NCBI RefSeq assembly: GCF_001592745.1
Contig: NZ_LUKD01000001.1
Span: forward strand, 1,446,848 to 1,510,847
From: Bdellovibrio bacteriovorus
Lineage (GTDB): Bacteria > Bdellovibrionota > Bdellovibrionia > Bdellovibrionales > Bdellovibrionaceae
Direction of reading: 5' to 3'
DNA: 64,000 bases
Position 1 is the first letter of the stretch. Each line of letters begins with the position of its first letter. The notes beneath the pieces are model-generated. The model did no database searches. It was given only the letters and a program-made list of their open reading frames with translations, and had not been told where the DNA came from. The position numbers were made by a program, and so were the translations under genes. Positions 28,809-32,102 of the stretch are shown here, in pieces.

Positions 28809-29129
28809 ATGAAAAAAATGATCGTTGCTATGGTTGCTTTGTTGGCTTCTGTATCTGCATTCGCACAAGAAGCTGCTCCAGCTGCTACTGAAGCTGCTGC
28901 TTCTGTTGCTACTGACCGCGGTTTGGTTGCTATCGCAGCTGCTATCGCTATCGCATTGTCTGTATTCGCAGGTGCAATGGCTCAAGGTAAAACAGCTTCT
29001 ACAGCTCTTGATGGTATCGCTCGTAACCCAGCAGCTTCTGGTAAACTATTGATCCCAATGATCTTGGGTCTAGCTCTTATCGAATCTCTAGTTATCTACG
29101 CGTTGATCATCGCTCTTCGTCTTGCTTAA
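28809..29129 (+). CDS. atpE: ATP synthase FO subunit c with signal peptide and sodium-type motif
   Basis: The 106-residue subunit c has an N-terminal signal-like segment ending AFA (cleavage near residue 19), an Ala/Glu spacer, then the two c-ring helices (about 38-62 and 80-104) joined by the RNP loop (residues 72-74). The ion-carrying acid is Glu92. Gln59, Glu92, Ser93 and Tyr97 stand at the spacing of the sodium-binding residues Gln32, Glu65, Ser66 and Tyr70 of Ilyobacter c; Thr67 is replaced by Leu. Start chosen after GAGGAG; an upstream ATG is five codons away. A structured region and a terminator follow. Confidence 0.93.
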   Translation: MKKMIVAMVALLASVSAFAQEAAPAATEAAASVATDRGLVAIAAAIAIALSVFAGAMAQGKTASTALDGIARNPAASGKLLIPMILGLALIESLVIYALIIALRLA

Positions 29130-29145
29130 TCGCGGTCGTCGCTAA

Positions 29146-29263
29146 GGACCCGATCGACTTCGTTGTCGGGTCTCGACTTGCTCTCCGGCGTACAAAAGTA
29201 CGCCTACGTGGCAGCCGAAACCCTCCGCCTTGCGCTCGGACCCTTATCGCCAACCTTAGTTGG
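29146..29263 (+). other. Hairpin-rich GC-rich segment downstream of atpE
   Basis: Several inverted repeats follow atpE: GACCCGA/TCGGGTC (29146-29171 region), a perfect GGCGTAC-AAAA-GTACGCC (29187-29204), and CCAAC/GTTGG (29250-29263). No reading frame with a start signal is seen. The segment has a higher GC content than its surroundings and could be a structured 3' UTR, a processed small RNA or a degenerate mobile repeat. Confidence 0.4.
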
Positions 29264-29284
29264 TTGGTAGAACGAACAAGAATT

Positions 29285-29317
29285 AAAAGGCTGGGATTTT
29301 TTCCTGGCCTTTTTTAT
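29285..29317 (+). terminator. Rho-independent terminator of the FO operon
   Basis: AAAAGGCTGGGA pairs with TCCTGGCCTTTT around a T-rich loop, with G-U pairs, and a T-run follows. It ends the atpZ-I-B-E transcript before the MerR-type gene. Confidence 0.7.
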
Positions 29318-29367
29318 TTTGTGGACCTTGACCCAAGGGTAAGCCTGAGATTCATCTAGAGGTTAGG

Positions 29368-30354
29368 ATGAAGAACTGGCTAACGATCGGACAATTTTCA
29401 AAAGCAGTTGGTGTTTCGGCAAAAGCTTTGCGCCTTTATGAGAAGATGGGACTGCTTAAGTCTCGCACTCGTGGAGAAAACGGCTATCGCTATTACGACG
29501 ACACACAGTTGGTTTTGGCAAAACGTCTTAAAGAATTTAAGGACTTGGGATTTAGTCTTGCGGAAATAAAAAGTCTTTTACAGTCCGATCATGCACTTGA
29601 TTCTGAAAAATTAAAAATCACAATGCGCACGCGACTTGATCTTATCAATCAGGAAGCCGAGCTTCTTAAAGAACAAAAGAAACAAATCGAAACCATCCTT
29701 TCCTCCATCGAAAAAAAATCAGAGCCGCTTAAGGCTGATGAGAGGAGAGTCATTATGAGTTTGTATGGCAAGGTTTCCATTGTTGTTACTGGCGTCAATG
29801 GTTTAGAAAAAACGGCTGAATATATTCAGAAACATTTTAAAAATGCTGGACAGAGTGTGCCTACTTTTAAGTGGCACGCTGAACTAGTATTACCTGAAGA
29901 AAAACCTTATATTCTTGTGGTTCCAGAGAAAGATCTTTTGTTCGGTGATATATCTAGAATTCAAGCAGATGTTGTTGTTATCAAAAACCTAAGTGAGCAC
30001 TCGGCGGAACTTGAAAAAAATTATTTAAAACTGTTCAGCGCTATCGGCCCTCACGTCAATACAGTGGTGAATGCTGATGATCGAGCTTCCGTTTCGTTAA
30101 TGGCAAATCCCCATATTCAAAAAGGACGAATCTTTTATTTTTCAAAAAATCGCGCGCTAGAAAAACAGATTAAATTTATCGGTGGTGTCTTAAGCAGCGG
30201 TGATGAACTTGATATCTACGGGTTTAATCTCAAATCACAGGTGCACGTGAAAATAGATAGAATCATGGCGCTGGAAGAAGAGATGGCATTGATCTCTTCA
30301 CTAGGTGCTGTACTCACTGTTGGGTTAGATCAAGAACAACTTCAGATTCGATAA
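29368..30354 (+). CDS. MerR-type regulator fused to a degenerate Mur-ligase-like domain
   Basis: Residues 1-70 form a MerR winged helix (LTIGQFSKAVGVSAKALRLY, then YRYYDDTQL and GFSLAEIKSLL). A coiled coil follows to about 118. Residues 133-328 resemble the ATP-binding central domain of Mur ligases and cyanophycin synthetase: TGVNGLEKTAEYI (141-153) aligns without gaps with the P-loop TGTNGKTTT but lacks the lysine, DVVVIKNLSEHSAELEK (201-217) aligns with the TNI.EDH segment, VVNADDRAS (233-241) with the LNADDP motif, and the last 30 residues with the helix after HN. The third ligase domain is absent. An enzyme is unlikely; sensing of nucleotide or peptidoglycan precursors is a plausible inference. 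Confidence 0.75.
   Translation: MKNWLTIGQFSKAVGVSAKALRLYEKMGLLKSRTRGENGYRYYDDTQLVLAKRLKEFKDLGFSLAEIKSLLQSDHALDSEKLKITMRTRLDLINQEAELLKEQKKQIETILSSIEKKSEPLKADERRVIMSLYGKVSIVVTGVNGLEKTAEYIQKHFKNAGQSVPTFKWHAELVLPEEKPYILVVPEKDLLFGDISRIQADVVVIKNLSEHSAELEKNYLKLFSAIGPHVNTVVNADDRASVSLMANPHIQKGRIFYFSKNRALEKQIKFIGGVLSSGDELDIYGFNLKSQVHVKIDRIMALEEEMALISSLGAVLTVGLDQEQLQIR
29742..29757 (+). promoter_or_regulatory. Possible internal translation start for the Mur-like domain
   Basis: GAGGAG (29742-29747 region) is followed after about seven bases by an in-frame ATG at 29755, codon 130 of the MerR fusion. This is exactly before the Mur-like domain, so a separate 199-residue product without the DNA-binding part could be made. 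Confidence 0.45.
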
Positions 30355-30371
30355 ATAGGGTCTGAAAAATG

Positions 30372-30407
30372 CAAAAGCGAATCAGGCCTTTGCCAGAATC
30401 GCTTTTG
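30372..30407 (+). terminator. Terminator-like hairpin after the MerR fusion gene
   Basis: CAAAAGCGA pairs with TCGCTTTTG, and TC/GA and GGC/GCC pair further in with symmetrical A-A mismatches. The T-run is only four bases and lies inside the stem, so termination may be partial, with read-through into the small gene. Confidence 0.6.
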
Positions 30408-30409
30408 GT

Positions 30410-30442
30410 GGATCTCCTGTCCGATAAAAACAGGAGGTATCC
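30410..30442 (+). promoter_or_regulatory. Hairpin that buries the Shine-Dalgarno site of the small peptide gene
   Basis: GGAT (30410-30413) pairs with ATCC (30439-30442) and TCCTGT (30415-30420) with ACAGGA (30430-30435). The optimal ribosome binding site AGGAGG (30432-30437) is therefore inside the structure. ACCTCC at 30558-30563, after the coding region, is complementary to GGAGGT (30433-30438) and gives an alternative long-range block. Confidence 0.6.
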
Positions 30443-30443
30443 G

Positions 30444-30542
30444 ATGCGTAAAAACACGTACTTACGTATTCGGCGTATTCTTGAGATTACTAAAGTAATC
30501 CTTGTGATTATTTTTCTGATCCTGACTATTTTTAAGTATTAG
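30444..30542 (+). CDS. 32-residue hydrophobic membrane peptide
   Basis: The frame starts at ATG six bases after a perfect AGGAGG site and encodes 32 residues: a basic N-terminus (MRKNTYLRIRR) and one uninterrupted hydrophobic helix of about 17 residues (ILVIIFLILTIF in the middle) ending in KY. It is too short for most gene finders. Basic start plus single membrane span is the form of type I toxins, small membrane regulators and leader peptides; nothing in the sequence separates these. The strong but sequestered ribosome binding site argues that it is translated under control. Confidence 0.6.
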   Translation: MRKNTYLRIRRILEITKVILVIIFLILTIFKY

Positions 30543-30544
30543 GT

Positions 30545-30655
30545 ATCTGAAGCAAGAACCTCCAACGTGTGCATAGCCTAAGGACCGGTGACTGGGAATC
30601 GGGCTGTTAACACGGTAGGAGTGAAACACGGACGAGTCTGGTGAAGGCTCAAATA
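30545..30655 (+). ncRNA. Structured RNA candidate downstream of the small peptide
   Basis: The segment folds into nested helices: AGCCT (30575-30579) with AGGCT (30645-30649), ACCGG (30584-30588) with CTGGT (30638-30642), and ACT/AGT next to it, enclosing a central domain. It ends at a strong terminator. It may be the 3' part of the peptide mRNA, an independent small RNA or a riboswitch-like element. The family is not recognised. Confidence 0.4.
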
Positions 30656-30684
30656 AAAAGCCCGCTCTTTTGGAACGGGCTTTT
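30656..30684. terminator. Strong rho-independent terminator
   Basis: AAAAGCCCG (30656-30664) pairs with CGGGCTTTT (30676-30684) and is followed by CTTTTTT. The A-run on the other side makes it usable from both directions, between the RNA candidate and the convergent phosphohexomutase gene. Confidence 0.85.
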
Positions 30685-30694
30685 CTTTTTTAAC

Positions 30695-30730
30695 CTGGTA
30701 CTTTTTTGAAACGATAGGAAGCAGGTACCT
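30695..30730 (-). repeat. Dispersed 36-base intergenic repeat, copy 2
   Basis: Read on the minus strand this begins AGGTACCTGCTTCC and ends AAAAAAGTACCAG. It matches copy 1 (563-598) at 29 of 36 positions without gaps. It starts one base after the stop codon of the phosphohexomutase gene. Confidence 0.7.
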
Positions 30731-30731
30731 T

Positions 30732-32102
30732 TTAGAGGTATTTGTTTACTACGGCTTCTACGCGGTTGCGGATTTTGTCCAGTCCGGCTTGAGTTGTGGA
30801 TTCGTAGCGAACGACGACAACAGGTTGTGTGTTTGATGAACGGCACAAAGCCCAACCATCTTCGAAAGACAAGCGGATGCCATCAGTGAAGTCCACTTTG
30901 TAGTCGACGCCTGGCTTGTTTGGGAAAGCTTCGATCATTTTTTCTACGATCAAAACTTTTTTCTCTTCAGTTGTGTCGATACGGATTTCTGGTGTGTTGA
31001 ATGCTGGTGGCAAACCTTCAAGCAATTGTGGAATTGTTTTTCCAGTTTTTGCCAAGATCTCTACCAAACGCAAAGCCGCGTAAGGAGCATCGTCGTAACC
31101 GTAGTTGCGATCTGCGAAGAAAACGTGACCTGACATTTCACCACCGAATGGAGCTTTTTCTACTTTGATTTTTTCTTTTACCAAAGAGTGACCTGTCTTC
31201 CACATGATCGGCTGGCCGCCGTGCTCAGAAACATCGTGGTACAAGCGATCCGAACATTTTACGTCGCCGATGATCTTTGCGCCTTTTTGTTCAGCTAAGA
31301 TTGAGCGAGCGATGATTACCATCAATTCGTCACCGTAAACCATGCGACCTGTGTGATCGACAACACCGATACGATCGGCATCACCGTCAAAGCCGATACC
31401 GCAAACGGCACCTTCTTTAGCGACTTGTTTTTTTAGATCTTCCAAGTTTTCTTCTACAGTTGGATCTGGATGGTGGTTCGGGAATGTTCCATCTGGTTGT
31501 TCAAATAGAATTGTTGGATTTAAACCAACAGCGTTGAATAGTCCGCGAACTACGGATCCACCAGCGCCGTTACCGCAATCAAGAACGACTTTCGTATTTT
31601 TGATGGTGCCGAATTCTTTTTTGTAGCGCTCGTAGTACATAGGCTTGATATCGAAATGTTCTTCAGAACCCTTTCCATCAATGTACTCACCTTTTTGAAT
31701 GATCTCGCGAAGTTTTTGAATTTCCGCACCGAAGATTGTGCCCTTGCCTACAGAAATTTTAAAGCCATTGTATTCAGGAGGATTGTGCGAACCCGTAACT
31801 TGAATCGCGCCATCGACGCCTTTCAACTCAAAAGTTGAAAAATAACAAACTGGGGTTGTCACAAGACCCAAGTGAATAACTTTAGCTCCGGAATCCATCA
31901 TCCCTTTTGCAAGATTCTTGATAATTGCTGGAGAACTTTCACGAGCATCACAACCCAAAGCGACTGTTGGATTTGTAAGGCCTTTATTTTGTTTCATGTA
32001 GACAACGTAAGCGCGGCCCAAGAGGTATGCGAAATTATCGTCGAATTGTCCGTTGTAAACTCCACGGATATCGTACTCTCTAAAAATAACCGGTTGAAAC
32101 AT
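30732..32102 (-). CDS. Phosphomannomutase/phosphoglucomutase
   Basis: The 456-residue enzyme moves phosphate between C1 and C6 of mannose or glucose phosphate, feeding nucleotide sugars for polysaccharide or LPS. The phosphoserine loop is TGSHNPPEYNG near residues 102-112, the metal site GFDGDADRIGVVD near 239-251, and the C-terminal phosphate loop RSSNTQPVVVVRYES near 415-429. AlgC/ManB-type enzymes are the closest match; substrate preference cannot be read from sequence alone. The gene is followed directly by the 36-base repeat. Confidence 0.92.
   Translation of the reverse strand: MFQPVIFREYDIRGVYNGQFDDNFAYLLGRAYVVYMKQNKGLTNPTVALGCDARESSPAIIKNLAKGMMDSGAKVIHLGLVTTPVCYFSTFELKGVDGAIQVTGSHNPPEYNGFKISVGKGTIFGAEIQKLREIIQKGEYIDGKGSEEHFDIKPMYYERYKKEFGTIKNTKVVLDCGNGAGGSVVRGLFNAVGLNPTILFEQPDGTFPNHHPDPTVEENLEDLKKQVAKEGAVCGIGFDGDADRIGVVDHTGRMVYGDELMVIIARSILAEQKGAKIIGDVKCSDRLYHDVSEHGGQPIMWKTGHSLVKEKIKVEKAPFGGEMSGHVFFADRNYGYDDAPYAALRLVEILAKTGKTIPQLLEGLPPAFNTPEIRIDTTEEKKVLIVEKMIEAFPNKPGVDYKVDFTDGIRLSFEDGWALCRSSNTQPVVVVRYESTTQAGLDKIRNRVEAVVNKYL

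Follow-up and report, generated by a model that had tools for sequence, protein, structure and literature searches.

A candidate type I toxin-antitoxin-like element with predicted sigma54- and FliA-type promoters, dispersed among Bdellovibrio-like predatory bacteria

We analysed a stretch of 64,000 nucleotides (hereafter the window) from a 3.755 Mb genome of Bdellovibrio bacteriovorus, in which a short open reading frame follows the stop codon of a MerR-type gene (29368-30354, with a Pfam MerR_1 match) and precedes the minus-strand gene pgm. A preliminary description of this DNA had reported a 32-residue ORF, an AGGAGG six bases before its ATG, a hairpin burying this Shine-Dalgarno (SD) sequence and an ACCTCC further downstream. 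On direct reading all of these were found where they had been placed, with AGGAGG at 30432-30437, the six-base spacer TATCCG and the start ATG at 30444. The feature is larger than the extent then proposed, 30410-30563: it spans about 30359-30691 and carries signals on both strands. Its parts are as follows:

30359-30372, plus strand: sigma54-type promoter by motif comparison, with GG (-24) at 30359-30360, N10 and GC (-12) at 30371-30372
30365-30461, minus strand: predicted antisense (antitoxin) RNA of ~97 nt, spanning the start codon, the SD and the mRNA 5′ end
30372-30407, minus strand: palindrome CAAAAGCGA..TCGCTTTTG, then ATTTTT on the minus strand; putative antisense-RNA terminator (covariation, T tail)
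30384-30650, plus strand: predicted sense (toxin-like) mRNA, its ends deduced from promoter position and fold-back helix
30386-30400, plus strand: fold-back helix, 5′ strand, GCCTTTGCCAGAATC (RNAalifold, covariation, shuffles)
30411-30442, plus strand: predicted SD-sequestering hairpin GGATCTCCTGT / ACAGGAGGTATCC, enclosing AGGAGG
30444-30542, plus strand: ORF (including the stop codon) for the basic, hydrophobic 32-aa peptide, translation MRKNTYLRIRRILEITKVILVIIFLILTIFKY
30468-30494, minus strand: putative FliA/sigma28-type antisense promoter by consensus match, TTTAG (30494-30490), N16, CCGAAT (30473-30468)
30558-30570, plus strand: ACCTCC (30558-30563), opening the conserved 3′ motif CUCCAACRUGU (pattern search)
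30635-30649, plus strand: fold-back helix, 3′ strand, GAGTCTGGTGAAGGC (RNAalifold, covariation, shuffles)
30655-30691, both strands: terminator-like bidirectional hairpin separating the element from pgm (direct reading)

The last of these hairpins lies outside the conserved element, and the same hairpin is present at the element-free site of another genome (G009).

A DNA search recovered a partial second copy from the window genome and gave matches in 10 of the 24 genus genomes. From 19 copies of the 5′ module we built a covariance model (R1), which matched 16 of these 24 genomes and 34 of 66 family genomes, representing 10 of 20 genera. A second model, built from 76 copies (R2), matched at least 41 of 368 phylum genomes, all belonging to one order; this count is a lower bound because nine candidates were scored per genome, and with the same nine candidates scored the number of copies per genome ranged from 1 to 9. 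We extracted 84 of the 86 family matches, excluding an opposite-strand match at an already counted copy in G004 and the match G053:C53, which was added in a later set; the addition of 36 further copies gave 120 in total. The element is a dispersed unit of about 280 bases which recurs across an order of Bdellovibrio-like predatory bacteria. Three copies were found in the window genome: the window copy, an intact copy encoding 36 aa (L064) and a decayed copy (L002). Genome G001 gave no match to the element. The feature lies far beyond chance expectation, given its recurrence in 16 of the 24 genus genomes, the covariation of the SD hairpin and the predicted fold of the mRNA (30384-30650; minimum free energy -93.1 kcal/mol, z -4.5), which none of 200 shuffles equalled. 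Phages, plasmids and viral contigs gave no match when queried with the window's DNA or with one type-A pattern. Among the matches listed, the most copies outside the window's family were the seven in G199 (L114-L120), which belongs to another family of the order. At a further locus (L070, G011:C10:125500-132500) three related copies lie ~1.95 kb apart with unrelated genes around each gap.

The neighbouring genes of 84 copies fell into 126 clusters, and the commonest arrangement was a pair of convergent flanking genes (40 of 78 copies). At the window's own site, between atpE and pgm, the element was found in G000, G005 and G021, while the site in G009 was empty. In G019 this site holds a promoter scar, in which the promoter joins the pgm terminator directly, as if the remainder had been deleted between short repeats. 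The MerR-type gene varies in presence at the same site independently of the element: G005 has the element without merR, and six genomes (G001, G006, G012, G013, G015 and G020) have merR without the element. A link to this MerR-Mur regulator, directly behind which the preliminary description had placed the peptide, was rejected on these grounds, the gene being an incidental neighbour. The decayed copy L002 lacks the hydrophobic half and the 3′ module, both of which are retained by L015 at the same site in G005. An apparent remnant of the 3′ module, CTAAGGTCGGGAC..CTTTGGCGGC, with no recognisable toxin half, was seen at the atpE-pgm site of G014 (L165, near 1400-1480).

Across the 120 copies, a peptide of 30-46 aa was found in 93, a peptide of another length in 12 and none in 15, so that 27 copies had no peptide of 30-46 aa by the finder used. 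All 93 peptides of 30-46 aa were distinct from one another, yet 92 carried a net positive charge and 92 contained a hydrophobic segment (Kyte-Doolittle maximum ≥ 1.6 over 15 residues). These 93 peptides, of which 92 are hydrophobic, lie within the size range by which type I toxins are recognised (< 60 aa). The dN/dS ratio was 0.49 in 21 type-A copies and 0.335 in codons 18-28, which encode the hydrophobic half; as judged from these substitution rates, the peptide is under purifying selection. The type-A copies showed a lower rate of synonymous differences over codons 2-17 (pS 0.36-0.38) than over codons 18-28 (pS 0.65), suggesting that further signals overlap the first half of the ORF. Five peptides matched no family in Pfam or NCBIfam, and PADLOC gave a weak match (E 0.0098) for one peptide among four.

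Sigma54 promoters have a -24/-12 layout, with GG at -24, GC at -12 and ten bases between them. In 69 of 84 copies GG stands exactly N10 before GC, while GG at other offsets occurred in 0-12 of the 84. It was also in place in 33 of the 36 further copies, for which the model did not cover GG, giving 102 of 120 overall. As the genome also contains rpoN (E 6.7e-66), the sense promoter is probably of the sigma54 type, and the message would start at about 30384, which coincides with the beginning of the helix joining both message ends. In three copies (L066, L019 and L074) the GG-N10-GC promoter is replaced, upstream of the palindrome, by a different module with a CCCGAAGGG..GGCAGGA hairpin that ends in AAC.

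This helix was predicted by RNAalifold from 15 copies as 15 pairs between 30386-30400 and 30635-30649, with 93.3% of cells paired and changes on both sides at 6 pairs; sliding the columns by 1-3 reduced pairing to 32-50%. When the pairing of each 5′ segment with the 3′ region of the same copy was compared with that of 100 shuffles, it surpassed 99 or more of them in 66 of 82 copies. The proportion passing this cut-off was 56 of 64 among copies with a peptide of 30-46 aa versus 10 of 18 among the others, and 16 of 35 copies passed in a second set. Failures numbered 16 of 82 and 19 of 35; a full-length peptide was present in 8 of the 16. The element thus shows a predicted long-distance pairing of the 5′ and 3′ ends, an architectural mark of the hok/sok and aapA/IsoA toxin messages.

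The SD hairpin covaries across relatives, as does, more weakly, a hairpin at the start codon. In the predicted fold of the window copy the SD is paired with the leader arm at a probability of 0.96 and with the 3′ UTR at 0.02; over 77 copies pairing with the 3′ UTR had a mean of 0.20 and a median of 0.02. Equilibrium folding gave no release of the SD on removal of the 3′ strand (mean unpaired 0.20 in the full message and 0.15 in the cut one). The second lock that the preliminary description had assigned to ACCTCC is accordingly upheld in part: this stretch lies inside a conserved 3′ motif, and in copy L024 the SD is predicted to pair with the 3′ UTR about half the time, but in the window copy such pairing is at the 0.02 given above. 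The pattern TCCA.C.[AT]GT (CUCCAAC-GUGU type) was present in 15 of 73 copies (shuffled mean 0.24) and YYAAGG in 41 of 75 (shuffled mean 6.4). The 3′ module folded alone had no consensus structure. It should also be noted that the order-wide 3′ motifs CUCCAACRUGU and GGACYAAGGNNGGGACUUNAAAUCC (30558-30620 in the window, and in other copies) are explained by no predicted helix.

The best-kept structure of the element is the palindrome, which flanks the putative sense start and the left arm of which would fall outside the sense message. All 10 of its pairs are changed on both sides, with 95.1% of cells paired in 76 copies, and it was the sole terminator-like site found in 30000-31000. Beyond the stem, 79 of 119 copies have a T tail (≥ 5 T among the next 8 nt) when read on the minus strand, compared with 6 of 119 when read on the plus strand. 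We counted mismatches in a manner favouring neither strand. In the palindrome, A.C outnumbered G.U by 36 to 6 in 104 different stems (p 2.8e-6, shared descent ignored), the A.C cases occurring at many positions and in 32 of 120 copies, whereas in the fold-back helix G.U outnumbered A.C by 53 to 5 (p 3.5e-11, shared descent ignored). For the SD hairpin, which would be part of both RNAs, the split was 8 versus 6. Because an A.C on the plus strand is a G.U in RNA of the minus strand, these biases suggest that the palindrome acts in a minus-strand RNA and the fold-back helix in a plus-strand RNA.

The attack-phase FliA consensus of B. bacteriovorus HD100 is TTAAG-N16-CCGATA (PMC3627812), and it matches over-conserved codons inside the ORF. 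We compared 91 copies with 200 synonymous-codon nulls. The mean best FliA-type score was 8.53 against 7.75 (sd 0.08) in the nulls, perfect CCGATA was found in 17 copies against 6.6, and a sum of ≥ 9 of 11 for the a-priori consensus was found in 37 of 91 copies against 16.9; none of the 200 nulls reached the observed value in any of the three comparisons. When the -10 was chosen alone, the match to the -35 peaked at a spacing of 16 (z 7.5). A relaxed antisense pattern, drawn up after the sites had been seen, was found in 74 of 91 copies against 17.8. Individual sites are degenerate, and the -10 of the window copy, CCGAAT, matches at 4 of 6 positions. The genome contains fliA (E 9.5e-84, over the cut-off). 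Taken together, these comparisons argue for an antisense promoter of the FliA/sigma28 type, with a motif conserved beyond coding constraint, and the antisense RNA would start at about 30461, ~7 nt after the -10. Its predicted fold (-37.4 kcal/mol, z -6.0, equalled by 0 of 200) comprises a pair of hairpins in the leader, then the terminator with a U tail. Promoter motif, minus-strand terminator and strand-specific mismatches all speak for an RNA complementary to the toxin-like message. A sigma70-type antisense promoter was rejected, as a broad high-scoring zone near ATG+60 fell below the synonymous-codon nulls (observed 6.63, null 7.10), and a minus-strand GG-N10-GC promoter showed no enrichment (at most 4 of 91 copies).

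We consider the copies to form a hitherto unnamed family of type I toxin-antitoxin-like modules, with a probability of about three in four. A sigma54-type promoter would produce an mRNA of ~267 nt, the 5′ end of which would pair with its own 3′ end while a local hairpin would hold the SD, so that the basic, membrane-inserting peptide of 32 aa would normally go untranslated. A FliA/sigma28-type promoter within the ORF would produce an antisense RNA of ~97 nt, which would extend leftward across the start codon, SD and leader, stop at the palindrome, and block or destroy the message. Comparison of sequences demonstrates the selection on the peptide, the SD hairpin, the 5′-3′ helix, both promoter motifs, the minus-strand hairpin with its T tail, and the dispersal and decay of copies; both transcripts, toxicity, antitoxin action and membrane damage are inferred. 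The short membrane-type peptide, translational lock and type I toxin-like layout of the preliminary description are supported by the peptide selection, the SD hairpin, the fold-back helix and the antisense signals, and its claim survived a comparison of relatives for random codon drift and for stems lacking compensatory changes.

The same RNA anatomy might serve an antisense-controlled small membrane protein that is not toxic, such as a regulator or membrane-active peptide of the predatory cycle that is useful to the cell. Purifying selection on the peptide and alternative-sigma promoters linked to the life cycle (PMC3627812) speak for this reading. Against it, the element's patchy presence, its 1-9 copies per genome among random neighbours, its truncated copies and the deletion scar are more typical of accessory TA loci than of a function that has become fixed, and G001 has no copy; we regard this explanation as rather unlikely. 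A leader peptide or attenuator acting on an adjacent gene, for instance the MerR-Mur regulator, is a reading for which an SD hairpin and short ORF near a regulator gene could be cited, but its likelihood is next to negligible: it was largely refuted by the neighbour clusters, which show unrelated genes across copies, by the independence of merR and element at the window's site and by the frequency of convergent flanks.

A small non-autonomous mobile DNA element, with the complementary ends as terminal inverted repeats and the palindrome as a DNA structure, would account for the dispersal of copies in unrelated intergenic sites, about half of them between convergent genes, and for presence and absence at a single site. 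DNA pairing has no wobble preference and would give neither of the observed biases, whereas the ends tolerate G.U (53 versus 5 A.C) and not A.C, and the palindrome the opposite; the terminal-inverted-repeat model was rejected for this reason. Copies in one genome also differ in their end sequences, yet each pairs with itself, and both the codon-level selection and the two promoters would be left unexplained, which makes a mobile element highly improbable.

The toxin-antitoxin-like reading also invites comparison with described systems, although searches of Pfam, NCBIfam and Rfam revealed no homology to any described family. Seven loci gave no Rfam match at gathering score, nor did the window at 29000-31000, where the sub-threshold matches were chiefly terminator hairpins. 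The hok/sok system of plasmid R1 has a fold-back of the mRNA ends with coupled nucleotide covariation, an antisense RNA over the leader, and dispersed, decaying chromosomal copies. The element resembles it in the predicted covarying fold-back of the mRNA ends, the dispersed and decaying copies and the predicted antisense RNA over the leader, but differs in its peptide of ~32-42 aa, which matches no Pfam family and hence not Hok, and in having no Rfam match.

The aapA/IsoA systems of Helicobacter pylori occur in several copies on the chromosome and combine a cis antisense RNA with a 5′-3′ long-distance interaction and SD-sequestering hairpins (PMC6733600). The element shares with them a multi-copy chromosomal family, a small peptide and, as predicted here, a cis antisense RNA with its promoter within the toxin ORF, the long-distance interaction and the SD-sequestering hairpins (PMC6733600). 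It differs in that its promoters are apparently sigma54-type for the sense and sigma28-type for the antisense strand, and in that its SD stays closed in equilibrium models when the 3′ strand is cut away; the peptides are linked by no Pfam or NCBIfam family. What sets the element apart is this combination of a sigma54-type promoter and a sigma28-type one. No report of the element was found in open-licence PMC papers, nor was one of a type I toxin with sigma 54 and an antisense RNA, or of a FliA antitoxin promoter, in this arrangement (open-licence PMC papers, the FliA part by title and abstract).

According to PMC12390103 (2025), knowledge of type I systems was limited to Proteobacteria, Firmicutes and Tenericutes until that paper's own cyanobacterial case, msoT1/msoA1 of Microcystis, which the element resembles, by description, in being a candidate type I module from beyond the classical phyla; that paper makes no mention of Bdellovibrio. 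A type I family across an order of predatory bacteria would widen this range. The mismatch test, which assigns a helix to a strand by G.U versus A.C without RNA-seq, could also find other antisense-controlled peptides. Both RNAs are apparently under alternative sigma factors, one of which is the published attack-phase regulator of Bdellovibrio (PMC3627812). Whether the family is an order-wide type I family of Bdellovibrionota, with the antitoxin RNA made by attack-phase FliA and the toxin mRNA by sigma54, and with the balance of toxin and antitoxin thereby wired to the switch between hunting and growth in prey, seems to us evenly balanced; the pairing of sigma factors makes such a link between a self-poisoning module and the predatory life cycle directly testable.
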